Shown here piece by piece: positions 2-39,355 of a stretch of 39,355 nucleotides of DNA (its first letter is position 1; each line of letters starts with the position of its first letter). The position numbers and the translations under genes were made by a program. The DNA is from Fluviicola sp. Its GTDB lineage: Bacteria > Bacteroidota > Bacteroidia > Flavobacteriales_D > Crocinitomicaceae. A model generated the notes under the pieces. That model was not told the origin of the DNA. It did no database searches and saw nothing but the letters and a program-made list of their open reading frames with translations. Where the stretch lies: NCBI GenBank assembly GCA_002734085.1, contig NVXV01000001.1, positions 1 through 39,355 on the forward strand, read 5' to 3'.

Positions 2-538
2 TGGCAAAAGCATGGCTTCTCTGTGCCCGAGGAGATTTTCTCATGGCTGCTCCAACCTCTCTCAAGCACGGAGAAGGGGGTGAGAGGAATCGCCGCTGCA
101 GCTGGTGCACAAGCATTGGGTATCTACCCCGGTCATGCAGAACAGTACCTCGGAATTCTCACGGATGCTTACCATGCAGCCTTAGTGGAGCCTGAGCCCG
201 AGAAAGATCAGTTTGGCAACCTTATCAGCGCGCCCCACGTCGACGCGTGGTTCAACCGTTGTGGTGTTGCCCAAGCGTGGCAAGCGGCGGCACCTGTGTG
301 GGACAAATCAACTTCCATCGATCTGTTGAAGTTCATCATTGAGGTTGGTCTTTTTGATGCTGATGAGCGTGCCCGTGAGCAAGTCGTCAACGCTGCTCTT
401 GCCGTAATTGACAGTGCGGGAGCTGACAACCTCGACTCTCTTCTCTCGATTGTCGATGGCGCAATGGTGCGCATGAAGTCTTCCAAGAGACGTGATGCAG
501 ACCACGCACGTCAATCGCTTGTGATTTTGCTTGGGGCT
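2..538 (+). CDS. GCN1: Internal fragment of eukaryotic GCN1 (HEAT-repeat translational activator), open at both ends
   Basis: The frame is open from base 2, before any start codon, and keeps GCN1-like sequence to codon 536-538. Recognisable pieces in order are GFSVPEEIFSWLL, GVRGIAAAAGAQAL, DQFGNLISAPHVDAWFNRCG, the helix pair FIIEVGLFDADERAREQVVNAALAVIDSAG, and DADHARQSLVILLGA. GCN1 proteins have the same order: a D-x-FG-x-I linker, D-x-W-x-x-R-x-G-x-A, then the 'valid.G...LL' and 'vR..vV.lLG.LA' HEAT repeats. GCN1 binds ribosomes and activates GCN2 kinase in eukaryotes; bacteria lack it. Base composition is clearly GC-richer than the rest of the window. After base 538 the frame becomes low-complexity antisense of the peptidase gene, so the protein is cut there. 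I take this as foreign sequence joined artificially, possibly from a co-sampled protist or alga. Confidence 0.8.
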
Positions 539-541
539 TCC
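536..541. other. Chimeric junction between eukaryotic GCN1 sequence and the bacterial contig
   Basis: GCN1 homology on the plus strand ends with ...VILLGA at about base 538. M28 peptidase homology on the minus strand ends with ...FAAYDNI at base 542. Composition changes from GC-rich to AT-rich at the same point. There are no inverted repeats, target duplications, integrase or tRNA at the join, which argues against a biological insertion and for a misassembly or chimeric clone. Confidence 0.75.
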
Positions 542-1774
542 TATATTATCATAAGCTGCAAAAGAAAGCTCCTCATGAGTATCAAAGACATCGTGATAGT
601 GTTGGTTGTGCCCCATTGTATAGATGAAAAAACTAGGCACACCTTCTTTATAAAAGTAATGATGATCACTATTTTGAGTTTCTCCTCTAGGCTTAACTTT
701 TACTAAATAATTCTTTTCTGTATTGATTTCTTGTAGTTTTTCGAAAGGTTCTTTCAGTTGCTTTCCATTTACAACGGTTATCCCTTTTTCTCCACTTCCC
801 ATAATATCTAAATTGAGCAAGAATTCAATGTCTTTCATTTTAATTGAGTTTTGTTCAACGAAATACTTTGAACCAAGCAGACCTGCTTCCTCCCCTGCAA
901 AAGCAATAAACATTAAATTGTAATCAACAGGGTTTTCTTTGAAATAATCTGCCATAGAAATTAACATCGCTGTTCCACTTGCATTATCATTGGCACCAGG
1001 AAAATAAGCTTCCGTTCCCATTCCTCCTAAGTGATCATAATGTGCAGTAAAAACAATTGTTTTCGCTTTTTTCTTGCCAGATGGTAAGTATCCAACAACA
1101 TTTTTACTATTAAAATTTTTGATGTATTCTGCTTCAATATCAACTTCTAGATTCATATCCTCAGAAACATGTTCTTCTTTTAATATAATAACGGGACTAT
1201 TTAACTTCTGTCTTCCAACCGACCAAGTAAACTTCTGACCAGTAGTAATGACAACAGGTGCCTTTTTAGCTAAAAAAATTAAGTTCCTTACTAGCTCAGT
1301 TTCTTTTTGAGGAGTTGTTCCTCTAGCGTCAACGAAAAAAGCGTTTGCATCTTTAGATTCTATTTCATTGAGTGCAATTCTCAACAAATTATGTTCTTTC
1401 AAAACTGCCGAATCAATTGGATAGGTTAAATCTAATTTCCCAGAATAACTTCCAGACATCTCGTGAACGATATAATCTTTTCCTGGTATCAGTTCTTTTC
1501 CATTCAAAACAACACTCATTTTTCCAGGAAATGTGTTCACACCGAATTCAAATGATTGAAAATATGATTCTTCAAAATATGGTTCTAGTCCAGATTTTTC
1601 AAATTCACTAGCAATATAATCTGCTGCTTTATTTACCCCGTCTTTAACATATCCACGCCCAAATAGGGAATCACTGCATAATATTTCAGTGATTTCTGCT
1701 GCCTTTTCTTTCTGGGCAAAAGAAAATTGACCAACAAATATAAGGACGGTTATTAAAAAATATTTATTCAGCAT
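539..1774 (-). CDS. Secreted M28-family zinc aminopeptidase, C-terminus cut off by the junction
   Basis: An exported peptidase with an N-terminal signal peptide (MLNKYFLITVLIFVGQFSFAQ). The M28 co-catalytic zinc ligands are present in order: H in TAHYDHLG (~residue 244), bridging D in GANDNASG (~261), catalytic and ligand Glu in AFAGEEAGL (~293), D in NLDIMG (~321) and H in HYHDVFD (~393). Family members probably cleave N-terminal residues of peptides in the periplasm or outside the cell. A PA-like insert lies between residues ~100 and 220. The true protein should run perhaps 20-30 residues past AAYDNI; the apparent continuation to base 308 is antisense of the GCN1 fragment and not real. The ATG at 1774 overlaps the upstream gene by 11 bases, so the two are probably co-translated. 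Confidence 0.88.
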
Positions 1775-2793: not shown

Positions 2794-3954
2794 CTACAAT
2801 GTCCCTCTAAGCCCTTGTTCGCGTTCAATGGACTCAAACAATGCTTTAAAGTTTCCTGCACCAAATCCTCTTGCTCCCATTCGTTGAATGATTTCAAAGA
2901 AAAGTGTTGGACGATCTTCCACAGGCTTTGTAAAGATCTGAAGTAAATATCCTTCTTCGTCGGCATCTACCATGATTCCAAGTTTTTGTATTGCCTCAAT
3001 ATCTTCTTGCAATTCGTGATCGTGAGCACCTAAACGCGCTGGAATCTCATCATAATATGCTTGAGGTGGAACAGATAAGAATTCTACCCCTCGACTTCTT
3101 AGGTCTGAAACCGTTTTTATAATGTCATCCGTTGCAACAGCAATATGTTGTACACCAGAACCTTCATAATAATCTAAATATTCCTCAATCTGAGATTTTT
3201 TCTTTCCTTCTGCTGGCTCATTAATTGGAAATTTAATTCTACCATTTCCATTTGACATCACTTTTGACATCAAAGCAGAATATTCAGTATGAATTTGTTT
3301 ATCATCGAAAGACAAGAAGTTTTCGAAGCCCATTACGTCCTCGTACCACTTCACCCACGTATTCATTTGGTTCCAACCTACGTTCCCAACCATGTGGTCG
3401 ATAAATTTCAAACCAACAGGTTCTGGATTATAATCTGACTCCCACTTTACATATCCTGGTAAAAAGTCTCCATTGTAATTTTTACGTTCAACAAACATAT
3501 GAACCGTTTCACCGTAAGTATAAATTCCAGCACGCACAACTTCACCATTTTCGTCTTTTTCAACCGTTGGTTCCATATACGATTTCGCTCCACGCTTTGT
3601 TGTTTCTTCATACGCTAGTCTAGCATCTTCGACCCATAAAGCGATTACTTTTACACCATCGCCGTGCTTTTTTACGTGCTCTCCAATTGGAGATTCAGAA
3701 TTAAGTGCAGTTGTTAGAACGATGCGAATTTTATCTTGTTTAAGTACATATGAAGCTCGATCTCTCACACCTGTTTCCAATCCTGCATAAGCGTGGGATT
3801 GAAAACCAAACGCTGTTTTATAAAAATGAGCCGCTTGTTTTGCATTTCCTACGTAAAACTCAACATAATCAGTACCTAAAAGAGGCAAGAAGTCTTGAGC
3901 TCCCGTAAATATTTTCTCCAGTCCGTATTCTACGTTTTTTACTTGTTTTGCCAT
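2794..3954 (-). CDS. hpd: 4-hydroxyphenylpyruvate dioxygenase
   Basis: Converts 4-hydroxyphenylpyruvate to homogentisate, the second step of tyrosine degradation. The 386-residue length and two-half vicinal-oxygen-chelate fold fit the family. The iron ligands are visible in the C-terminal half: H in FIDHMVGNV (~187), H in GVQHIAVATDDI (~266) and E in LFFEIIQRMG (~353). The characteristic C-terminal gate helix with RGFGAGNFKALFESIEREQ is present. It lies 48 bases downstream of hmgA in the same direction, so both are expected on one transcript. A REP-like repeat follows the stop. Confidence 0.97.
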   Translation of the reverse strand: MAKQVKNVEYGLEKIFTGAQDFLPLLGTDYVEFYVGNAKQAAHFYKTAFGFQSHAYAGLETGVRDRASYVLKQDKIRIVLTTALNSESPIGEHVKKHGDGVKVIALWVEDARLAYEETTKRGAKSYMEPTVEKDENGEVVRAGIYTYGETVHMFVERKNYNGDFLPGYVKWESDYNPEPVGLKFIDHMVGNVGWNQMNTWVKWYEDVMGFENFLSFDDKQIHTEYSALMSKVMSNGNGRIKFPINEPAEGKKKSQIEEYLDYYEGSGVQHIAVATDDIIKTVSDLRSRGVEFLSVPPQAYYDEIPARLGAHDHELQEDIEAIQKLGIMVDADEEGYLLQIFTKPVEDRPTLFFEIIQRMGARGFGAGNFKALFESIEREQGLRGTL

Positions 3955-4002
3955 ATCTATTTATTTATGAATCTCTGTGAAATTCAGTTTTATCTTTTTT
4001 TA

Positions 4003-5163
4003 TTAATCTTCTAACCAAGATTTAAAGTAATCTTTATCAGCAATATCTAAAGCCGTTTGTGTAAGTCGCAGAGGCTTGAATGTGTCCACCATTACTGCTA
4101 ACTCTCCAGTTTCTTTTTGCCCAATACTTCTTTCCATTGCACCAGGGTGTGGTCCATGTGGAATTCCAGCTGGATGTAAAGAAATAAAACCTTTATCGAC
4201 ATGATTTCTCGACATAAAATCTCCATCCACGTAGTAAAGCACCTCATCAGAGTCAATATTACTGTGATTATAAGGAGCTGGAACTGCTTCTGGATGGTAA
4301 TCATAAAGTCTAGGACAGAATGAACAAACTACATAGTTGTGCGCTTCAAAAGTTTGATGCACAGGCGGTGGCTGATGTACTCGGCCCGTTATGGGTTCAA
4401 AATCCTTAATATTAAATGCATAAGGGAAATTGTATCCATCCCAACCCACAACATCAAATGGATGTGAAGCATAAGTAATCTGATGTAGCACATTTTCCTT
4501 TTTAACCTTTACTACAAAGTCACCTTTTTCATCATGCGTTTCAAGTTCTTCTGGAGTTCTTAAATCACGTTCACAAAAAGGAGAGTGTTCCATTAATTGC
4601 CCAAAATTGTTTCTATAACGCTTTGGAGTCAAAATGGGAGAGAAAGATTCAACGATAAACAACCTGTTGTTCTCTGTATCAAAATTAATCTGATAAATAA
4701 TTCCGCGCGGTACAACAAGGTAATCACCAGGACCAAACTTAATATTTCCAAGCATTGTTCTTAATGTACCTGTTCCATGATGAACAAAAATCATCTCATC
4801 TGCATCTGCATTTTTATAGAAATAGTCTTTTAACGACTCCTGTGGTGCAGACAATACAATGTTTAGATCATTATTAAACATCACCGTTTTTCTACTCTCC
4901 AAAAAATCCTTTTCCGGTTTAACTTGAAATCCGTTGAGCATTTGACTAGTAATATTTTTGTCGACTGCCGCTTTCGGAGTCATATCAATCGGCTTTTCCA
5001 CTTGTTTCACCATTGTAGGACGGTGAACATGATACATTAGAGAAGCCATACCACTGAAACCTTCCGTTCCAAATAGCTGCTCATAATAATACCCACCATC
5101 CTCTTTCTTAAAAGTGGTGTGCCTTTTATGTGGAATTTTACCAAGTTTTGAATAAAATGGCAT
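4003..5163 (-). CDS. hmgA: Homogentisate 1,2-dioxygenase
   Basis: Opens the homogentisate ring to maleylacetoacetate, directly after Hpd. The sequence shows the cupin-type active-site region: VVGWDGYNFPYAFNIKDFEP, HQPPPVHQTFEAHNYVVCSF, and PYNHSNIDSDEVLYYVDGDF, which carries the iron-ligand His/Glu, followed by GIPHGPHPGAMER. The 386 residues are shorter than the ~430-440 of proteobacterial and mammalian HmgA but typical of the Bacteroidota branch. Start MPFYSKLGKIPHKRH is the first ATG after a ~140-base leader with a possible structured RNA. The maleylacetoacetate isomerase and fumarylacetoacetase genes are not in the window. Confidence 0.95.
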   Translation of the reverse strand: MPFYSKLGKIPHKRHTTFKKEDGGYYYEQLFGTEGFSGMASLMYHVHRPTMVKQVEKPIDMTPKAAVDKNITSQMLNGFQVKPEKDFLESRKTVMFNNDLNIVLSAPQESLKDYFYKNADADEMIFVHHGTGTLRTMLGNIKFGPGDYLVVPRGIIYQINFDTENNRLFIVESFSPILTPKRYRNNFGQLMEHSPFCERDLRTPEELETHDEKGDFVVKVKKENVLHQITYASHPFDVVGWDGYNFPYAFNIKDFEPITGRVHQPPPVHQTFEAHNYVVCSFCPRLYDYHPEAVPAPYNHSNIDSDEVLYYVDGDFMSRNHVDKGFISLHPAGIPHGPHPGAMERSIGQKETGELAVMVDTFKPLRLTQTALDIADKDYFKSWLED

Positions 5164-9157: not shown

Positions 9158-9565
9158 ATGTCTACTAATAAAATAAAAATTCTAATTGTTGAAGATTACA
9201 GTAGAATAGCAGAAGCATGGTCAAACATTTTGACACAGGAGGGTCATGACGTTATTGGTATCTGTTCAGGTGAAAAAGAAGGTCTCGATGTAGCTAAAGA
9301 ACTAAATCCTGACATCGTTCTGATGGATATTAATCTTAAAGAAGGCAATGGGATAAGTTGTACACAAAATTTAATGTCTTCACTCCCAAATTGCAAAGTA
9401 ATCACATTATCTATGTATAATGATAAGAAGCATTTCGAAGATATGTTTAACGCAGGAGCTGTGGGTTATGTGACGAAAAACAGTTCCATTAAAGAAATAC
9501 TTAATGCTATAGAAGTAGTACTAAAAGGTGGAATCTACATATGTGATGAAATGAAAGACATCTAA
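9158..9565 (+). CDS. Single-domain response regulator (receiver only)
   Basis: A 135-residue CheY-like receiver with no output domain. The acidic pocket is E12-D13 (LIVEDYSR), the phospho-acceptor is D57 (PDIVLMDINL), the switch Ser is S85 (ITLSMYN) and the conserved Lys is K107 (GYVTKNSS). The sequence resembles NarL/FixJ receivers, which normally continue into an HTH domain; here it stops after GGIYICDEMKDI, where the linker to the HTH would begin. It converges on the hybrid-kinase gene, and the two stop codons share a 4-base overlap (9562-9565). It may be the phosphorelay partner of the neighbouring kinases, which is an inference from position. Confidence 0.85.
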   Translation: MSTNKIKILIVEDYSRIAEAWSNILTQEGHDVIGICSGEKEGLDVAKELNPDIVLMDINLKEGNGISCTQNLMSSLPNCKVITLSMYNDKKHFEDMFNAGAVGYVTKNSSIKEILNAIEVVLKGGIYICDEMKDI

Positions 9566-10884
9566 GTTTCCGCTTCAAATGAAATTTTTATCTCTGTTCC
9601 TTTGTTTAGACCTGATTTCAAATCAAATTCCATACTTGACACACGGCATCGGTCTTTCATGTTTTGAAGTCCAGACCCAGAATGTGTTTTATTTTCATCA
9701 AAGCCTTTTCCGTTATCGCTAACTTTCATTTTGAATCGATTACCAACTACTTCCAAATTCACTTTAATTTCAGAAGCTTCAGAATGTTTTAGCGCATTAT
9801 TTACAAATTCTTGAACAATTCGATACAAATGATAAGATTTAGAATCATCTACCAAAAGAGCAACAGATTTAGCATCATTAATTTCACAAATGAAAGTTGT
9901 TTCACTGACCATATTCATTCGAACAAAAAACTTTTTAACTCCTTCTGAAATACCTTCCTGCAAATCTGGTGGATTTAAACTATAAGATAGTGAACGAATT
10001 CCATCCGTAATTTTTTGATATACCCCCATAAAATCTTGATAAACTTGATTGTTTGTGACAGCCAAACTTTCAAAATAAAGTTTCAATAATACCAAGTCTT
10101 GGGCGTATCCATCATGTAATTCCATTGAAAGTTGCTTTCGCTCCTTATCCTGCATTTCACTAATAAATTCAATCTTTTTCTTTTCATAATCAATGACATC
10201 AGTTTGATCTTCTAATGAAATCAGGTAACATGCTTTTTTTTCCCAATTGATTTCCTCATGTTTAACAACTACCTTCCGATTTTCACCTTGCCCATTCATC
10301 ACACTTATGATTTGATTAGGTTTTTCGATGGCTAATTTTACTGGGAACAACTTATCAATATCGCTATCAATCTCTTCTAAATCAAAGAATTCCATCGCAC
10401 ACTTATTTGCCTTTATAACTTTATGCCCCTCTCTGGTTACAATAAAAACTGGAACAGTATGATGATCAAAAAGTTGTTGGTATTGGGCTAGTAAGGTTTT
10501 ATTTTTTTTAGTTAAAGAATAAATCTTATAGCTGTCCTCTATGATATTTGATAATTCTTCAAAATCCCATGGTTTTTGTACAAATCGATAAACATAGCCG
10601 CGATTGATACTTTCATAAGCAGTTTCATAGTCTGCATAAGCTGTTAGGATAATTCTAATTGTATCAGGATATTTTACTTTAACCTCTTCAAAAAATGAAA
10701 CACCAGACTTGAGCGGCATTCTCTGATCAGAAATAATCACATTAATATCATTGTCATCTAACAACTTCATTCCTTCATCTGCAGAATTTGCAGTAAAAAC
10801 TTGATATTTTCTTCGAAAAGTAGAATAGAAAACCTCTAAGTTTATCTCTTCGTCATCGATATAAAGTACTTTTATTTTTTTCAT
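9562..10884 (-). CDS. Hybrid receiver-histidine kinase (REC-PAS-HisKA_3-HATPase)
   Basis: A soluble protein of 440 residues. The N-terminal receiver (1-~125) has D10/D11, phospho-acceptor D53 in IISDQRMP and a KPWD loop at ~104-107. A PAS-like segment is at ~135-225. The kinase core has a HisKA_3-type dimerisation helix with His257 in RKQLSMELHDGYAQDL, the N-box QEFVNNALKHS (~359-369) and ATP-lid motifs DNGKGF and SGSGLQNM. This NarX/DesK-like kinase is thus fused behind its own receiver, so it can take a phosphate or signal and pass it on. Its ATG overlaps the TGA of the sensor kinase gene (ATGA), so the two are translationally coupled. Confidence 0.92.
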   Translation of the reverse strand: MKKIKVLYIDDEEINLEVFYSTFRRKYQVFTANSADEGMKLLDDNDINVIISDQRMPLKSGVSFFEEVKVKYPDTIRIILTAYADYETAYESINRGYVYRFVQKPWDFEELSNIIEDSYKIYSLTKKNKTLLAQYQQLFDHHTVPVFIVTREGHKVIKANKCAMEFFDLEEIDSDIDKLFPVKLAIEKPNQIISVMNGQGENRKVVVKHEEINWEKKACYLISLEDQTDVIDYEKKKIEFISEMQDKERKQLSMELHDGYAQDLVLLKLYFESLAVTNNQVYQDFMGVYQKITDGIRSLSYSLNPPDLQEGISEGVKKFFVRMNMVSETTFICEINDAKSVALLVDDSKSYHLYRIVQEFVNNALKHSEASEIKVNLEVVGNRFKMKVSDNGKGFDENKTHSGSGLQNMKDRCRVSSMEFDLKSGLNKGTEIKISFEAET

Positions 10885-13007
10885 GAAACTACTGGTAAAA
10901 TAAATTTAAAATTTGTACCCACTTGCTCGTCTGTATCTAGAATGATTTGTCCCTTATGATTATCAATAATTTTATATACAATAGACAAGCCTAACCCTGT
11001 TCCTTTGCCCACATCTTTAGTTGTGAAAAAGGGATCGTAAATTTTATTTACTAAATTCTGAGGAATACCTACTCCGTTGTCTTTAAAAGATATGACAATA
11101 GATTGGTTTGATTCTTCATGGTATGAACTTATCAATAGTTTACCCCCTTCTCCATTTTCATATTTTAATTTAATCGCATCAATAGCATTTATTATAATAT
11201 TCATGAAGACTTGATTCAATTTACCAGGATAACATAATATTTGAGGAATTTCCTTTAGGTCTGTTTCAACCTGAATACTCCCTAGTTTATTCTGAACTAA
11301 AGTTAAGCTTGATTCAATGCCTTTATTAATATCTGATGGCACTTTTGATTTGTGATCATCACGAGAAAAAGTTTTTAACCCTTTCACAATATCCCCTGTT
11401 CTTCGAGCTCCTTCTTCAATGTTTGTTATAATCTCATTTAACTCGTTTTTCAAATATGGCAACTCTATTTCTTCCTTAAATGCTTCTATCTCCTTTATCT
11501 TTTGTTTAAAGTTACTTTCATCTAAGGATGCATAAAGAATGAGAAGGTTTTCTATATCCTTTAAGTCTCTTTTTAAAGGCTCAATATTAGAAGAAACAAA
11601 GTTTATTGGATTGTTTATTTCATGAGCAATTCCCGCTGTTAATTGCCCAAGAGAAGCCATTTTTTCTGATTCAAGAAGTTTACTTTGAGCCTCCATAACT
11701 GAATTTAATGCTGCTTCTAACTCTTCATTCACTTTTAGCAATTCATTGGTTCTTTCTTTTACCTTTTGCTCTAATATAATATTTTGTTCTGAAATCAACC
11801 TTTTATTTTCTCTTAAGGCTTTTATCTCATTTGATCTCGATTTATCTTTTTCTGCTCTATACGTATTTATTCTATTTGCCAAACCTATGGAAAGTAAAAT
11901 GGTTTCTAGTCCTGACCCTAATAACATTGTATAATTCGTAAGATTGTTATGAGGTAATACTCCCGTATCTTTAAGAACCCAGAAAACAATTCCTACTAAA
12001 AACATGCTCCACGCTAATAGAAAATAGATAGCAGTCTTATTTCCTCTTCGCAAAATTATAAACGCACCGATCAACATCGTAAGTGCAACAAGCATCGCAG
12101 TAATATCAATAAGCGTATAAGCACCTTTAAATTCATTAATCATTACTAAAACCACACTTATGGCGTAAAACAAAAAATATAATCGAAAAATCCAGATAAG
12201 TCTTGGCGCATATTCTTTTGTTTTCAAAAAACTATTGAAAAACAGCACTCCTGTTACTCCTACAGTAATTGGGAAAAGGAACATTGAATACTGAGTGAAG
12301 ACGGTTGAATCTGGCCAAAAAAACTGAAAGGTATAACCGTGAGGTGTTAATTGTGTAAACATCAAAATTGTGATGTACAAAACATAATACAAATAACTAT
12401 TATCTTTTACAAAAACATAAATAACAGCGTTATACAAAATCATTGCAATCATCAATCCAAGGAAAATTGAAAGAAATACAATCAACTGTTGATTTACTTC
12501 ATCAATTTTATCGTACGTTCCAATATATAGTGGAATTTGTACTTGGTTTGAGCTATTAACTTTCAAATAATAAGTTTTGGTTTCATTTTTACCAATTCTT
12601 AAATCGAAAACAAAATGATTTAACGGAATATCGCGTTCATCAAAATTAAATTGATCTCCTTCAATTGAGATATAATCATTCGCAACATCATAAAAAGCTA
12701 CTTCATCTAACGTGGGTTGAGCTACTTCCAAAAAATAACTTCCATCTGTTTTATTGGTGATTTCAATTTTAATCCAAACATTTCCACGTGAGATACCAAA
12801 ATTTGGAACCTCCTCTGTGGAAGGTTTAAAACCATTTATTTTCTTAACCTCATTAATAGTCAGCTCACCAGAATTATCCTGATAAACAAAGATCTTTTTA
12901 CCTATAGAAACTCGTTCTATAGAGTTATTAATCAAAACTTCCTGCGAAATACCAAAATTACTTATAACCATAAGTAGTAAGGTCAATAACTTTATAGATA
13001 TACTCAT
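10881..13007 (-). CDS. 7TM-DISM sensor histidine kinase
   Basis: A 708-residue membrane kinase. It has a signal peptide (1-~22), an extracytoplasmic 7TMR-DISMED2-like beta domain (~25-170), seven hydrophobic helices (~175-375), and a coiled coil (~385-445). The kinase core has His ~460 in GIAHEINNPINF, N-box MNIIINAIDAI (~605-612), DNGVGIP and GKGTGLGLSIVYKII. DISMED2 domains are thought to bind small ligands, often carbohydrates. It follows the GNAT gene by 15 bases and overlaps the downstream hybrid kinase by 4 bases, making it the likely signal input of this island. Confidence 0.93.
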   Translation of the reverse strand: MSISIKLLTLLLMVISNFGISQEVLINNSIERVSIGKKIFVYQDNSGELTINEVKKINGFKPSTEEVPNFGISRGNVWIKIEITNKTDGSYFLEVAQPTLDEVAFYDVANDYISIEGDQFNFDERDIPLNHFVFDLRIGKNETKTYYLKVNSSNQVQIPLYIGTYDKIDEVNQQLIVFLSIFLGLMIAMILYNAVIYVFVKDNSYLYYVLYITILMFTQLTPHGYTFQFFWPDSTVFTQYSMFLFPITVGVTGVLFFNSFLKTKEYAPRLIWIFRLYFLFYAISVVLVMINEFKGAYTLIDITAMLVALTMLIGAFIILRRGNKTAIYFLLAWSMFLVGIVFWVLKDTGVLPHNNLTNYTMLLGSGLETILLSIGLANRINTYRAEKDKSRSNEIKALRENKRLISEQNIILEQKVKERTNELLKVNEELEAALNSVMEAQSKLLESEKMASLGQLTAGIAHEINNPINFVSSNIEPLKRDLKDIENLLILYASLDESNFKQKIKEIEAFKEEIELPYLKNELNEIITNIEEGARRTGDIVKGLKTFSRDDHKSKVPSDINKGIESSLTLVQNKLGSIQVETDLKEIPQILCYPGKLNQVFMNIIINAIDAIKLKYENGEGGKLLISSYHEESNQSIVISFKDNGVGIPQNLVNKIYDPFFTTKDVGKGTGLGLSIVYKIIDNHKGQIILDTDEQVGTNFKFILPVVS

Positions 13008-13022
13008 TCTGTGATTTTTGGT

Positions 13023-13724
13023 TTATTTTTCTAAAACATTAACAATTAGATTGTAATCGACTTTAAAATTACCCTTTTTTCCTTCCTCTCCTCTTATTTG
13101 AACAGGATTTTTTCTCAAACCCAAAATCTTCTCTCTATCATAAATATTAGCGGTCTCAAGTGTAGAAGATTTTAATATACCAACTACTCTTGTTATATAT
13201 TCGTCTGTAGGATAAGGAAATTCTCCATTATTACTTAGAGAAGTATCAATTTCAAAGCCTACATTCTTGAACATCGGAAGACTATACTCTGCACAAATGC
13301 CCATTAGTATGTCAAACTTCAACTGATTAACAATAGAGACAGCTGCTCTTGTCAACATAAAGCTAATTCCAACGCCTTGTACTGATTTGGAGTTCCAAAG
13401 ACCACATAGCTCCCCTACTCCTTGACTTTGATATCTTTTTACTAAGTCGTAAATACCTTCGTCAAGTTTTGCAATAGCAACCTCCATTGGCAAGGGGTAT
13501 TTATTCCAGTCTTTGATGTGAACTCTTATTCCTCCAACCATAATTCCATCTTCGTTATAAGCAACTACACAATGAGCATAAGGATTTTCCATCCAAGATT
13601 GTTTAAATGAAGTTATCATAGTTACACCATAATCTCTTAAGACATTGGCGTGTTCCCTAAGAAATATTTCATTCAAATCAGGTTTGTCTATTGCTCGATA
13701 TGTTTCTACTTTATAAATTCCCAT
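13023..13724 (-). CDS. GNAT-superfamily acyltransferase resembling acyl-amino-acid/autoinducer synthases
   Basis: A 233-residue soluble protein without signal peptide. The central part has a GNAT-like layout: GIMVGGIRVHIKDW (beta strands 3-4), GVGELCGLWNSKSVQGVGISFMLTRAAVSI (acyl-CoA-binding strand and helix), then FDILMGICAEYSLPMFKNVGFEID. The 'E-L-x-x-L-W' strand followed by a helix and a late '...P-M-x-x-x-x-G-F' strand recalls FeeM/LuxI-type N-acyl transferases. I cannot assign the substrate. Its ATG overlaps the ThiF-like stop by 14 bases, so the two proteins are made in a coupled way and probably work on the same product. Confidence 0.65.
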   Translation of the reverse strand: MGIYKVETYRAIDKPDLNEIFLREHANVLRDYGVTMITSFKQSWMENPYAHCVVAYNEDGIMVGGIRVHIKDWNKYPLPMEVAIAKLDEGIYDLVKRYQSQGVGELCGLWNSKSVQGVGISFMLTRAAVSIVNQLKFDILMGICAEYSLPMFKNVGFEIDTSLSNNGEFPYPTDEYITRVVGILKSSTLETANIYDREKILGLRKNPVQIRGEEGKKGNFKVDYNLIVNVLEK

Positions 13725-14793
13725 TAATTATTTGGTCCAAATCAACAAAAAACCGACCTGTTACCTCTGATTTATTCAATAAAATTTTTCTTGTCATCAT
13801 GGCTGTTATGGCCCCTCCGAGCATTACATCTGCCCCAAGTTGTGGCCAAGTAGTTATTGTTTTACCAATTTCTTTCATCGAGTTCCTTAAACCCTCAGAC
13901 ATCGTTTCAATATTAATGATTTTGCTAACAATAGCCACTCTTTCTTCAGAAGTTTTAGCATGTTTTAATCGTTCTAAATCATCAGGCGTTACTAATCCAT
14001 GAAACAAATTCATTCCAGGATTCAAATCATACCTTTCTACGTCCAACATACCTCGATCGCTGGTGTCCATTAAAACAGGTGTTTTAGTTTTTCTAGACTT
14101 CTCGCGTAATGCAATTTTTACATCAATTGAATCGCATTCATCGATTAAAATATCAATAGGCTTCCCACTATGCTCAAAAAATGAATCAATATTTTCAGGG
14201 GTAACACCTTCATGAAAACACTTTACGTCAATGTAGGGATCTATTTCGGCAATTTCTCTTGCTACAACAATTGTCTTGAGTGTCCCTATATTGTGAAGCC
14301 CTGTTCTTATCCGATTCATGTTTCCCAACTCTAAATGATCAAAATCAGCGATAATCATACTCCCAGCTATACGCTCCATGGCAATCGCTAATGAAACAGA
14401 TTGACCAACAGAAAGTCCAACAATACCGACACACTTATTTTTAAGTATCTCTTGTTCTTTCTGTGTAATCTTATATTTATTTCTAATGGTTCTTACCTGA
14501 ATAAATTGATCTTCAGGTAAAATTCTTATCAAATTATTATTCCAAGGATAGTATACCCAGTTTCCAAATTTTTCCAAATCTATAGAAGATAGAAATGCTT
14601 CAAACTCATTTTTTAATTGACTTTCATTATTAACTAATTCAGGATTTGAAAGTTTTACATATTCATAAATCTGTGAATTTAACTGATTATGAATGATTAA
14701 ATTTGGGTTCTGCTGAACTAATTCCTCAAACTGAAGTCGTTGACTTGCAGTTGATAAATCGAATATTTTTGGTTTATAGATTAATGAATACAT
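13711..14793 (-). CDS. E1/ThiF-like adenylyltransferase (stand-alone, Rv1355c-like N-terminal half)
   Basis: A 360-residue protein that opens the four-gene minus-strand unit. The N-terminal ~115 residues end in a WVYYPW-x-x-x-L-x-R-I-L motif, followed by the ThiF/MoeB/E1 Rossmann domain: nucleotide loop GIVGLSVGQSV (~123-133), ADFDHLELGNMNRIRTG (~147-163), the basic residue in IGTLKTIVVAREIAEIDPY, the substrate Asp region DILIDECDSIDVKIALRE, and PVLMDTSDRGMLDVERYD. From memory this matches the ThiF part of the Rv1355c family, which there is fused to a nitroreductase; here that domain is missing. No CxxC zinc pairs are visible. Family members adenylate a carboxylate; the substrate here is unknown. 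Confidence 0.82.
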   Translation of the reverse strand: MYSLIYKPKIFDLSTASQRLQFEELVQQNPNLIIHNQLNSQIYEYVKLSNPELVNNESQLKNEFEAFLSSIDLEKFGNWVYYPWNNNLIRILPEDQFIQVRTIRNKYKITQKEQEILKNKCVGIVGLSVGQSVSLAIAMERIAGSMIIADFDHLELGNMNRIRTGLHNIGTLKTIVVAREIAEIDPYIDVKCFHEGVTPENIDSFFEHSGKPIDILIDECDSIDVKIALREKSRKTKTPVLMDTSDRGMLDVERYDLNPGMNLFHGLVTPDDLERLKHAKTSEERVAIVSKIINIETMSEGLRNSMKEIGKTITTWPQLGADVMLGGAITAMMTRKILLNKSEVTGRFFVDLDQIINGNL

Positions 14794-14880
14794 GCAAATT
14801 GTTTGTAGATTTAATCGTAAAGTAGTAATTTTAGCTTGTTTAGGCTTAATAATTTACCGTTTTCTACTAAATAAAAACTC

Positions 14881-15342
14881 ATGTATAAACACATTAACGC
14901 ATTATATATCGATGATGAGAAAAGCAATCTAACCTCCTTCAAAGCTGCTTTTAGACGCGATTTTAATGTATTTTTGGCTGAAAGTTCTTCAGATGGTATG
15001 GAAATACTTCGAAAGAATGAAATTCACGTTATACTTACGGATCAAAGAATGCCTGAGAAAACAGGTGTTGAGTTTCTTTCTTCAATACTAGAAGAATTCC
15101 CTCATGCAACAAGAATCTTAGTCACTGGCTACACCGATATGGAAGCATTAGTTGACGCTGTAAATAAAGGTCATATTTTTAAGTATATTTCAAAACCATG
15201 GGATAATGATAAGCTTAAAGACATCATTATTAAGGCATATGAAATCTACCAACTAAAAACCGAGAATCAAGAAATCAACGAAAAGCTTGCTCAAGCCAAT
15301 GATCAATTAGAATTCATGCTGCGTCAGAAACTATTATCATAA
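14881..15342 (+). CDS. Single-domain response regulator with C-terminal coiled coil
   Basis: A 153-residue receiver: D11/D12 in LYIDDEKSN, phospho-acceptor D54 in ILTDQRMP, Thr82 in ILVTGYTD and K105 in YISKPWDN. The last ~35 residues (YQLKTENQEINEKLAQANDQLEFML) form a coiled coil instead of an output domain. It is closely similar in style to the receiver of the hybrid kinase at 9562-10884 (shared DQRMP, KPWD, and a Y-E/K-I-Y linker), so the two may share partners. It is divergent from the ThiF-like gene with 87 bases between them. Confidence 0.87.
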   Translation: MYKHINALYIDDEKSNLTSFKAAFRRDFNVFLAESSSDGMEILRKNEIHVILTDQRMPEKTGVEFLSSILEEFPHATRILVTGYTDMEALVDAVNKGHIFKYISKPWDNDKLKDIIIKAYEIYQLKTENQEINEKLAQANDQLEFMLRQKLLS

Positions 15343-17027: not shown

Positions 17028-18467
17028 ATGGATGATCTAATAGAACGTTTACGCCTTTTAGAAAAAGAATCAAAATTGTTGGATCTTAATGACGTTGAAC
17101 GGAAAGCTACGTTTTCTAATTTTGAAAAAATTGCTTCTGAATTCCTCAACGAATTAGAAGATGGTAATACCTACTCAAATGCCAAGTCATACGCTTCTAT
17201 ATTTGAAATAAAAGAAGAGTCAGAAAACTTGGTTGATATAAGCGGAACGATTTATTCAGAAGTTATGCAAAAGGGTATAAATGCAGCTTCAGGTGGTCAC
17301 TTGGGTTATATCCCTGGTGGTGGGCTTTATACTTCTGCAATTGGTGATTACCTAGCTGCCGTGAGCAACGCCTTTAGTGGAATGTACTACGCTTCTCCAG
17401 GTGCTGTTGAAATGGAGTATGCCTGTCTAAACTGGCTAAAAGAATTGTTTGATTTTCCTAAAAATGCAATTGGCAACTTAACCTCTGGTGGATCTATTGC
17501 TAATTTAATTGGATTAACTGCTGCTAGAGATTTTCACAAAGTACTTGATCAGCCAGTAGGTAAAAGTGTTGTTTATATGAGTAAACACACCCATCATTGT
17601 GTTCATAAAGCTCTACGTATTATCGGACTTGCCAATGTGACTGTTCGTGAAATTGAATTAGATGAAAACAACAGAATTAAACCTGATCATCTAAAGGAAT
17701 TGATTGAAAAAGACATTGAAATCAACCTTTCTCCATTTTTAGTTATCGCCTCAGCTGGAACAACTGATACAGGGGCGATGGATCCGTTAGATGAAGTTGC
17801 CGATGTTGCCAAACACTATAAGCTCTGGTATCACATCGATGCAGCTTACGGCGGGTTTTTTAAGCTAGTAGAGACTAAAAAAGCATTGTTCGAAGGAATC
17901 GGAAAAGCAGATTCATTGGTTATAGATCCACACAAAGGGCTGTTTTTACCTTATGGAATTGGAGCTGTGCTTGTTAAAAATAGAGAGGCTGTATTAAAGT
18001 CACATCATTATTTGGCAAATTACATGCAGGACGCCACAGATAATGAATTTCCTTTAAATCCTGCAGATGTTTCACCAGAATTGACCAAGCATTTCCGAGC
18101 ACTTCGCATGTGGTTACCTATGAAAATTCATGGAACTCTCCCATTCGTTGCTGCACTGGAAGAAAAGCTTCTATTAACGGAGTATTTTCGCCGTGAAATT
18201 GTAAAACTTGGTTTTTCTATTGGCCCTGAACCAGATTTGTCTGTTACCTATTTTTGGTATCCTAAAAATGATTCACAAAACGAATTCAATCAAAACTTGT
18301 TGAAAGCTTTTCATGAAAGTGGCGAGGTCTTTTTAAGCTCCACAAAGCTTGAGGAAAAGTTTGTCATTCGAATGGCAATTCTTTCATTTCGAACACATCG
18401 TTCAACCATAGACAAAGCAATTGAAATGATTAAGAGTGGACTTCGACTCCGCTCAGCTCACTCTTAA
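17028..18467 (+). CDS. Group II PLP-dependent amino-acid decarboxylase
   Basis: A 479-residue enzyme of the aromatic-L-amino-acid/glutamate decarboxylase family, expected to release CO2 from an amino acid to form an amine. PLP contacts are visible: GNLTSGGSIANLIGL (phosphate), SKHTHHCVHKAL with the ring-stacking His (~188), WYHIDAAYGG with the Asp that binds the pyridine nitrogen (~271), and Lys ~302 in VIDPHKGLFLPYG. The substrate cannot be read from sequence. Start ATG 17028 is followed by an N-terminal helical extension normal for the family. It converges with the SDR gene and the two stops overlap by 4 bases. Confidence 0.9.
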   Translation: MDDLIERLRLLEKESKLLDLNDVERKATFSNFEKIASEFLNELEDGNTYSNAKSYASIFEIKEESENLVDISGTIYSEVMQKGINAASGGHLGYIPGGGLYTSAIGDYLAAVSNAFSGMYYASPGAVEMEYACLNWLKELFDFPKNAIGNLTSGGSIANLIGLTAARDFHKVLDQPVGKSVVYMSKHTHHCVHKALRIIGLANVTVREIELDENNRIKPDHLKELIEKDIEINLSPFLVIASAGTTDTGAMDPLDEVADVAKHYKLWYHIDAAYGGFFKLVETKKALFEGIGKADSLVIDPHKGLFLPYGIGAVLVKNREAVLKSHHYLANYMQDATDNEFPLNPADVSPELTKHFRALRMWLPMKIHGTLPFVAALEEKLLLTEYFRREIVKLGFSIGPEPDLSVTYFWYPKNDSQNEFNQNLLKAFHESGEVFLSSTKLEEKFVIRMAILSFRTHRSTIDKAIEMIKSGLRLRSAHS

Positions 18468-38611: not shown

Positions 38612-39355
38612 TTATAAAGATTTCATTACAATTCTCGCCGTCTGCCGCGTTTTCTGCTCCATCAGAATTTCCTTTTGAGCCGTAACCCGATCAATTGTTG
38701 CTTGATCGTAGTGTCTAATTGTAACTAACTCTAATCCATTATTGTATTTCACAACATAGTCATCATTCAGTAAATCAACCAGCTTGTTTAATCTAATCGT
38801 ATCAATATCTAAACACACAGTAAAACTAACCGCAGAGTTTTGCATAATATTGATATGTCCACCAGAAATAGCAAGTTTACCGAAGATGTGGCTTAAGTTT
38901 TCTTCAACGATAAAAGAAAAATCTTTGGGTGTAATTGAAAGTAAAACCTGGTTAATTTTAAAGATAAACGACGGAATTAAATGGTCGTTTTCTGTAGAAT
39001 TTTGAATTACCGTTCCCGACGCTTCAGGATCTACAAATGACTTCACAAAAAGTGGGATATTCTTATTTTGTAGCGGCTTTATTGTTTTTGGGTGAATAAC
39101 GGATGCCCCAAAATAAGCGAGTTCTATCGCTTCTTTAAAAGAAATTTTATCTAATTTTACAGTATTGTCAAACCATTTTGGATCCGCATTAAGCATCCCT
39201 GGAACATCTTTCCAAATCGTAACACTTTCCGCATTTGTGCAATAAGCGAAAATACCAGCCGTGAAATCAGATCCCTCGCGACCTAGTGTTGTTGTGAAGT
39301 TTTCATCTGTGTGTCCTAAAAATCCTTGAGTAATCAATATGTTTTTATCAGAATG
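38612..39355 (-). CDS. Aspartate kinase, C-terminal part (truncated by window end)
   Basis: The frame continues upstream to the last base of the window, giving HSDKNILITQGFLG; this is the interior of an aspartokinase, and the catalytic N-terminus lies outside the window. Visible are the kinase end TTLGREGSDFTAGIFAYCTNAESVTIWKDVPGMLNADP and ASVIHPKTIKPLQNKNIPLFVKSF, then the ACT regulatory region HINIMQNSAVSFTVCLD. It ends after the ACT region (RQTARIVMKSL), so it is a monofunctional aspartokinase, not a fusion with homoserine dehydrogenase. It phosphorylates aspartate in the lysine/threonine/methionine pathway; which amino acid feeds back is not visible. Confidence 0.95.
   Translation of the reverse strand, partial: HSDKNILITQGFLGHTDENFTTTLGREGSDFTAGIFAYCTNAESVTIWKDVPGMLNADPKWFDNTVKLDKISFKEAIELAYFGASVIHPKTIKPLQNKNIPLFVKSFVDPEASGTVIQNSTENDHLIPSFIFKINQVLLSITPKDFSFIVEENLSHIFGKLAISGGHINIMQNSAVSFTVCLDIDTIRLNKLVDLLNDDYVVKYNNGLELVTIRHYDQATIDRVTAQKEILMEQKTRQTARIVMKSL

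Follow-up and report, generated by a model that had tools for sequence, protein, structure and literature searches.

A ThiF-type enzyme, a GNAT-fold acyltransferase and a 7TM-DISM kinase as a candidate chemical signaling module in Bacteroidota

We analyzed a window of 39,355 nucleotides, the whole stretch from position 1 to 39,355 of contig NVXV01000001.1 from a Fluviicola sp. (Bacteroidota; assembly GCA_002734085.1), which contains a compact island of enzyme and two-component genes at positions 9158 to 15342. On the reverse strand, the gene of a ThiF-type enzyme (13711 to 14793) overlaps by 14 bases the gene of a GNAT-fold acyltransferase resembling N-acyl amino acid synthases (13023 to 13724). 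After a 15-base spacer (13008 to 13022) follows a 7TMR-DISM histidine kinase (10881 to 13007), whose stop overlaps by 4 bases the start of a soluble hybrid kinase (9562 to 10884). Two lone receiver (REC) genes on the forward strand, REC1 (9158 to 9565) and REC2 (14881 to 15342), bound the island. A preliminary description had proposed that the ThiF- and GNAT-like proteins make a small-molecule signal which the membrane kinase senses. The gene positions, overlaps, 15-base gap and opposite-strand receivers at both edges that it gave are all in the sequence, as are the domains, according to an open reading frame (ORF) listing and a Pfam scan. On balance, we favor reading the island as one synthase-receptor-phosphorelay module, probably serving self-produced signaling.

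The ThiF-type protein matches Pfam PF00899 (E 4.5e-16), and its best family, far above the ThiF and MoeB models, is the “Rv1355c family” NF005901 (E 2.3e-124), to which it aligns over model positions 10 to 340 of 722, scoring 416 bits against a cut-off of 476; the latter half of this model has no counterpart in the window protein. With the ThiF domain of an Rv1355c-family protein from Rhodococcus it shares 39% identity, the glycine-rich ATP-site residues and the WPQL and DRG..D.ER.D motifs. Asp221 is invariant in 17 of 17 aligned rows, with 52 further columns invariant or nearly so. It lies where, by analogy with ThiF and MoeB, we presume the Asp mutated in TrzS to be. Neither the ThiF gene nor its neighbors encode a flavin oxidase (desaturase), and the full NF005901 model found just one other match in the genome of the window, of 21 bits at model positions 343 to 400, which is no convincing second copy. 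According to the accessible text of PMC12856293, Rv1355c is TrzS and yields N-acyl tryptazolones together with the N-acyltransferase TrzA. In TrzS, cyclization of the N-acyl amino acid falls to the ThiF domain and desaturation to the flavin oxidase domain (accessible parts of PMC12856293 and PMC10404671), and the saturated ring appeared under O2 limitation or upon mutation of the oxidase (PMC12856293, same portion). Because the window ThiF lacks the oxidase half and its genome offers only the 21-bit match, a saturated oxazolone is the expected product. The earlier ThiF/E1-like assignment can be sharpened to a predicted cyclase of the TrzS type, acting on N-acyl amino acids and lacking the desaturase.

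By sequence, the GNAT assignment of the second enzyme falls just below the Pfam cut-off (19.5 versus 20.7 bits). An AlphaFold2 model built from 64 aligned relatives reached a predicted local distance difference test (pLDDT) score of 94.6, and Foldseek ranked FeeM first (2g0b, E 1.4e-8, TMt 0.80), followed by the CoA-dependent N-acyl homoserine lactone (AHL) synthases BjaI, RpaI and MesI, mixed with general GNATs. The structural superposition shows low identity to FeeM, and among the 64 aligned members Acetyltransf_1 matches 7. The 64-member profile detects the 252-residue neighbor of the Rhodococcus Rv1355c-family gene (E 9.5e-5, probability 59), while a search of PDB sequences with it returned no real match (best E 0.95). 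The GNAT-like fold posited from sequence does match acyltransferases, and the idea of an acyl-amide synthase survives because the model finds FeeM first and AHL synthases next. Most likely, the GNAT and ThiF proteins make an N-acyl amino acid and activate or cyclize its carboxylate; that the enzymes make some small molecule derived from an N-acyl amino acid, we regard as highly probable.

The proposed receptor carries the Pfam domains 7TMR-DISM_7TM (1.6e-45), 7TMR-DISMED2 (1.4e-30), HisKA and HATPase_c. In a model of its residues 1 to 400 (pLDDT 94.7), a beta-sandwich ectodomain precedes a seven-transmembrane core, and the ectodomain superimposes on that of RetS (3jyb) with TMt 0.81. The phosphorelay residues are kept among relatives: the kinase His in 128 of 128, the receiver Asp and kinase His of the soluble REC-kinase in 108 of 108, and the REC2 Asp in 112 of 114. 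Mean identity is 54% for the kinase core, 38% for the transmembrane part and 21% for the ectodomain, the most divergent part, which fits changing ligands without proving them. The kinase would likely sense the signal.

The preliminary description had treated the ThiF, GNAT and kinase genes as a single system, an idea that is supported within Bacteroidota. Acyltransferase and kinase genes adjoin ThiF in 15 of 15 untruncated relatives, 14 of which also possess a larger receiver protein (REC-kinase, 361 to 458 residues); a sixteenth, L035, whose contig ends soon after the acyltransferase gene, was left out. Searching species-representative genomes with an alignment of ThiF proteins confirmed at least 477 relatives, and the best 80 loci contain the acyltransferase in 76 cases, the kinase in 72, the REC-kinase in 62 and a REC2-type receiver in 67. 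Restricted to the 64 of these loci with full flanks, the counts are 64, 62, 56 and 58. Since the 80 loci were chosen by similarity to the window-type ThiF, they under-sample distant ThiF relatives and other phyla, and the collections of loci used here overlap. The order of genes is ThiF-GNAT-kinase in 97 systems and GNAT-ThiF-kinase in 18, and REC2 lies at either end of the cluster; the median intergenic gap is 1 base. Some loci depart in architecture: in L063 (6409 to 8307) ThiF and acyltransferase are fused into one protein of 632 residues, with no kinase in the locus; the kinase of L115 is split over two ORFs; and L073 and L212 have two acyltransferase genes per cluster, perhaps giving two products for one receptor.

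Among 59 relatives, the window's own genome included, the TrzS-type ThiF and the acyltransferase occur in the same 9 genomes. With up to 19 kinase candidates scored per genome, an orthologous kinase (E 1e-60 or better) was found in 8 of these 9 and in 0 of the 50 others; in the ninth, G052, a contig end leaves kinase status not judgeable, and the only further kinase match is a 218-bit paralogue within G053. In a phylum-wide survey of 395 Bacteroidota genomes, where the two best kinase candidates per genome were scored, the kinase (at least 434 bits) and the acyltransferase (E 1e-8) select the same 13 genomes, and nine further genomes have weaker or kinase-core matches only (up to 269 bits). 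Ten of the 13 have ThiF; in G165 a contig edge truncates the locus (L147) and leaves the end of ThiF visible, and G182 and G439 lack ThiF. Co-occurrence and the counts in full-flank loci together disfavor accidental adjacency of the kinase in Bacteroidota.

In G182 and G439, a gene of 213 codons from the ICMT family (PF04140, E 1.5e-19 and 3.5e-18) takes the place of ThiF. Its product also matches PEMT and stays below the cut-off of the NCBIfam ICMT model (95.5 versus 160 bits); we predict it to be a carboxyl methyltransferase. An RHPxY motif, which we take to be catalytic, is kept in all 7 ICMT proteins. These systems number 7, counting L181, in which a contig end truncates the acyltransferase. 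Among 157 genomes of the same taxonomic family, the kinase occurs in 47, of which 45 were newly fetched (L181 to L225) and the other two are G182 (ICMT) and G065 (ThiF). In all 45, an acyltransferase or a fragment of one lies upstream of the kinase. The gene beside or between acyltransferase and kinase encodes ThiF accompanied by the flavin oxidase (FDO) in 20 loci, ThiF alone in 7, ICMT in 5 and, according to Pfam, a class-I S-adenosylmethionine methyltransferase in 2 and a FAD_binding_4 oxidase in 1; 8 loci have nothing there, and in L209 and L215 a contig edge prevents assignment. In the two class-I methyltransferase systems, L219 and L223, a REC2-type receiver directly follows the kinase instead of the REC-kinase. 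The 18 genomes without ThiF in the cluster hold no TrzS-type ThiF elsewhere, since a ThiF-fold match (E 1e-5 or better) appears in only 6 of the 18 and the best has 54 bits. No decayed ThiF or ICMT gene was detected in the 8 loci with nothing (no tblastn match better than E 0.21). One of these, L187, has a gap of 647 bases (between 6335 and 6983) from acyltransferase to kinase, roughly as long as an ICMT gene, in which no ICMT remnant is recognizable.

A FastTree phylogeny of 130 kinases (of 134, after removal of near-identical ones; 72 of 127 inner branches well supported) requires at least 23 changes of tailoring state and, among ThiF systems, at least 15 changes of FDO presence, so that FDO must have been gained or lost several times. 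FDO is present in 74 of the 130 relatives; the window and its sister L031 form one FDO-less pair among mostly FDO-bearing neighbors. The 7 ICMT systems and the 8 with nothing fall interspersed in one clade of 15. A cyclase that consumes the carboxylate of an N-acyl amino acid and a methyltransferase that caps it would be chemically parallel routes to a neutral, lipophilic product, and replacement of one by the other is what we would expect of a locus whose signal form varies while its reader stays. Because acyltransferase and kinase remain while ThiF is replaced, the swap supports the one-system reading.

The hybrid kinase had been described as REC-PAS-HisKA_3; Response_reg, PAS_8 and HATPase_c are found, but HisKA_3 remains under its cut-off (19.6 versus 24 bits). 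Such a HisKA_3-type hybrid replaces the REC-HisKA-HATPase kinase of most relatives (8 versus 108 systems by profile). Five of 129 systems have a LuxR-type regulator no more than 4 kb away, and 4 of these 5 belong to the 8 systems that carry the HisKA_3-type hybrid. The regulator of L032, L056, L073 and L098 adjoins the hybrid at the place of REC1. REC1 itself, a NarL-like receiver without an output domain (PF00072, E 3.1e-23), found a match among 15 relatives only in the NarL-type regulator of L032 (1806 to 2456), and neither it nor the hybrid kinase adjoins the kinase of L031. In the window, REC1 may take the place of the LuxR-type regulator and may have arisen from a regulator by loss of the DNA-binding domain. 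Both edge receivers had been suggested as the output; REC2 belongs to the conserved set but REC1 lies outside it.

REC2 is divergent (PF00072), and its C-terminal tail, which reads QLEFMLRQKLLS in the window, is strongly conserved: the last residues are L[LMI]S in 109 of 119 REC2 proteins. The tail suggests a docking peptide and is our best clue to the output partner. Between the window and L031, REC2 is 81% identical and ThiF only 49%. In L037 (8912 to 9403) and L038 (8058 to 8543), a lone divergent protein without recognizable receiver features keeps the place and a related C-terminal tail; that of L037 has no Response_reg match in Pfam. REC2 was considered as a marker of the system and proved imperfect: among the 59 relatives it matched 8 of the 9 pair-bearing genomes and, in addition, G040, where the pair is missing; in G043 and G053 the lone receiver is degenerate and the match falls on the receiver of the REC-kinase. 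A plasmid search with REC2 gave generic response-regulator receivers, at up to 38.8% identity among the matches listed.

The 87-base intergenic region (14794 to 14880) separates the ThiF operon from the divergent REC2 gene and would hold both promoters; promoter-like matches within it are at chance level only, and scans for promoters, terminators and TANNTTTG found nothing above shuffled sequence. Next to the island lie a cysteinyl-tRNA synthetase gene on one side and an extracytoplasmic function sigma/anti-sigma pair on the other. We did not obtain a clean empty site in the genus; G002 and G004 keep sigma genes of ~50% identity in other neighborhoods. The window has 31 ORFs of at least 120 residues, 29 of which were scanned with Pfam, leaving out 23 to 706 (+) and 38612 to 39337 (−); outside the island these encode mostly ordinary metabolic, repair and secreted proteins. 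Genes of tyrosine-breakdown type (4-hydroxyphenylpyruvate dioxygenase-like and homogentisate dioxygenase-like, 2794 to 5163) lie on one side of the island and a pyridoxal phosphate-dependent amino acid decarboxylase (17028 to 18467) on the other, and homologs of the dioxygenase-like gene at 4003 to 5163 and of the decarboxylase also occur near the island of L031. These genes are possibly unrelated to the island, yet known oxazolone pathways take aromatic amino acids as substrates.

Outside Bacteroidota the picture differs. A plasmid search returned 13 records with a related ThiF, all from Actinomycetota, and two of them were examined. On a Rhodococcus plasmid (L228, 2970 to 4705), a GGDEF gene adjoins a TrzA-like gene and an Rv1355c-family gene; on a Streptomyces plasmid (L229, 4818 to 7715), genes of a MerR-type regulator, ThiF and a GNAT run together, and this ThiF, of 388 residues, likewise lacks the oxidase half. 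These neighbors suggest other regulatory partners for the same chemistry. In M. tuberculosis, trzAS adjoins cyclic di-GMP genes, which, together with the likeness of oxazolones to AHLs, was taken as a hint of signaling (PMC12856293, in the part of the text available). The single-system claim is supported for Bacteroidota (13 of 395 genomes, 62 of 64 full-flank loci); outside the phylum, the pair occurs without such kinases within 5 to 6 kb on these two plasmids, as far as their incomplete gene tables show.

From gene content, families, folds, co-occurrence, shuffled gene orders and the tailoring swap, we infer the following scheme of substrates, product, sensing, phosphate route and cell-cell use. 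The GNAT-fold enzyme would couple an acyl group to an amino acid, and the ThiF-type enzyme would activate the carboxylate with ATP and close it to a saturated oxazolone; in most relatives a flavin oxidase would then desaturate the ring, a step that the window system would lack. The lipophilic product would exit the cell or stay in the envelope, where the co-directional 7TM-DISM kinase may sense it and pass phosphate to the soluble REC-kinase and the lone receivers. These relay proteins, mostly without a DNA-binding domain, would work through protein contacts, and the probable use is autoinducer-like, that is, self-produced, signaling.

Several observations weigh against this scheme. Eight systems have no tailoring enzyme at all. 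The enzymes occur without the kinase in the full-flank loci L063 and L101, and L082 has ThiF alone, with neither partner visible and little upstream flank. Conversely, L226 (490 bits) and L227 (414 bits) have kinases of the wider family without an acyltransferase, full-length kinases inside systems scoring ~670 bits or more with our kinase profile. Acyltransferase distances correlate with those of the sensor (r 0.46) no better than with the kinase core (0.50) or the REC-kinase (0.55), and a special co-variation of acyltransferase and sensor was rejected, there being no extra signal beyond the rest of the module. Sensor divergence also depends little on tailoring type: at equal kinase distance it is 0.67 between and 0.61 within types in the closest bin and almost equal elsewhere, with relatedness uncontrolled. 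Neither actinobacterial plasmid shows such a kinase within 5 to 6 kb in its incomplete gene table, unless one counts a truncated “sensor domain-containing protein” where the Streptomyces stretch ends, and the GNAT adjoining the Streptomyces ThiF does not match the acyltransferase profile. Finally, the descriptions of related N-acyl tyrosine and oxazolone clusters in the accessible portions of PMC12479983 and PMC12856293 include no kinases.

We think one rival unlikely, though it is the strongest one: the N-acyl amino acid or oxazolone serves some other purpose, be it as a membrane lipid, an antimicrobial or a stress metabolite, with the kinase controlling its production in response to the state of the envelope, a precursor or an outside cue. 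Kinases commonly adjoin the genes that they control, and the absence of special co-variation between acyltransferase and sensor agrees with this rival. So do reports that sub-inhibitory antibiotics induce oxazolone production in proteobacteria, for which a stress role was proposed, and that N-acyl tyrosine acids inhibit some bacteria (PMC12856293 and PMC12479983, respectively, as far as their accessible text goes). However, because a LuxR-type regulator is near so few systems (5 of 129; other DNA-binding families were not sought), simple local control of the operon is not the evident output, and the kinase family stays the same although the tailoring chemistry changes.

Two further rivals appear very improbable. 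One takes ThiF as an E1-like enzyme acting on a protein or peptide partner, in conjugation or sulfur transfer, with the GNAT acylating a protein; the ThiF fold speaks for it, as do weak matches to E1-E2 models of PADLOC that cover the common ThiF core (best E 6.6e-9). Against it, Rv1355c outranks the ThiF and MoeB models by far, relatives replace ThiF by methyltransferases or an oxidase, and the acyltransferase fold is closest to FeeM. As the preliminary description had stated for ubiquitin-like, JAB, thiamine and molybdopterin genes, none of these, nor E2, ThiS or MoaD, is encoded by the 29 scanned ORFs of the window (the rest of the genome was not searched). Protein-conjugation, thiamine and molybdopterin roles are disfavored by this family match and this lack of partner families. 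The other, equally faint, has the genes co-inherited through shared ancestry or joint transfer without a functional link, to which the patchy spread of the pair would correspond (9 of 59 relatives, absent from 7 of 9 other same-genus genomes), but gene order and REC2 place are shuffled with content kept, phospho-sites and enzyme residues persist despite low overall identity, and 96% of 230 gaps are 100 bases or less.

A single synthase-receptor-phosphorelay module remains our preferred reading, and it makes the locus a strong candidate for an unrecognized bacterial chemical signaling system. A bolder version, to which we would give slightly less than even chances, is that of a widespread Bacteroidota autoinducer system in which synthase, receptor and phosphorelay are constant and interchangeable tailoring enzymes (a cyclase with or without desaturase, a carboxyl methyltransferase, a class-I methyltransferase, a FAD oxidase, or none) produce different dialects of the signal, to be read by an ectodomain that evolves fast. 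If true, the kinase would be the first receptor for acyl-oxazolones, and the system a home-grown Bacteroidota counterpart of AHL and Phc signaling, adding to this phylum a signal-receptor pair with visible chemical variants. We know of no established endogenous small-molecule quorum-sensing system in Bacteroidota. In many Bacteroidota, an enzyme subfamily of oxazolone type is linked at the level of individual genes to a single receptor-type kinase, which makes such a role directly testable.

Among the papers listed by searches of the open literature, subscription papers and preprints lying outside, none links a 7TM-DISM kinase with a ThiF-acyltransferase pair in its title or abstract opening. 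The acyl-oxazolone pathways trzAS and tyzACB (mycobacteria, Rhodococcus) and oxzAB (Pseudoalteromonas rubra) have a ThiF of the same subfamily, TrzS, and an adjacent acyltransferase like N-acyl amino acid synthases, as predicted for the window from sequence and model; they differ in their fused or adjacent flavin oxidase, and they are not described, in the accessible text, as tied to a 7TM-DISM kinase and receivers. The N-acyl tyrosine clusters of stieleriacines and kyonggic and thalassotalic acids similarly join an N-acyl amino acid synthase with ThiF and a nitroreductase, and in Stieleria also a methyltransferase, but the available text of PMC12479983, the source of these descriptions, has 0 occurrences of “histidine kinase” and of “two-component”. 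Similar in plan is the Ralstonia phc operon (phcBSRQ), with a signal methyltransferase, a sensor kinase, a soluble receiver-kinase without a DNA-binding domain and a lone receiver (PMC8578825 and PMC11960443, from their accessible parts). The likeness, by description and not by sequence, lies in the set of signal-making enzyme, sensor kinase, soluble REC-kinase and lone receiver, and some Bacteroidota relatives also use an enzyme of carboxyl-methyltransferase type. The window synthase, however, is an acyltransferase plus ThiF instead of PhcB, which makes a hydroxy fatty acid methyl ester; the Bacteroidota receptor is a 7TM-DISM kinase; and Phc output runs through the LysR-type PhcA. Given the different synthase and receptor, the Bacteroidota module is not a member of the Phc family. 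The acyltransferase shares its modeled fold with FeeM-type N-acyl amino acid synthases and LuxI/BjaI-type AHL synthases, differing from FeeM in sequence (12 to 14% identity; Pfam FeeM, PF21926, in 1 of 64 members). The kinase has the DISMED2 ectodomain and seven-transmembrane core of 7TMR-DISM kinases such as RetS, from which it is set apart by belonging to an ortholog group found with an acyltransferase.

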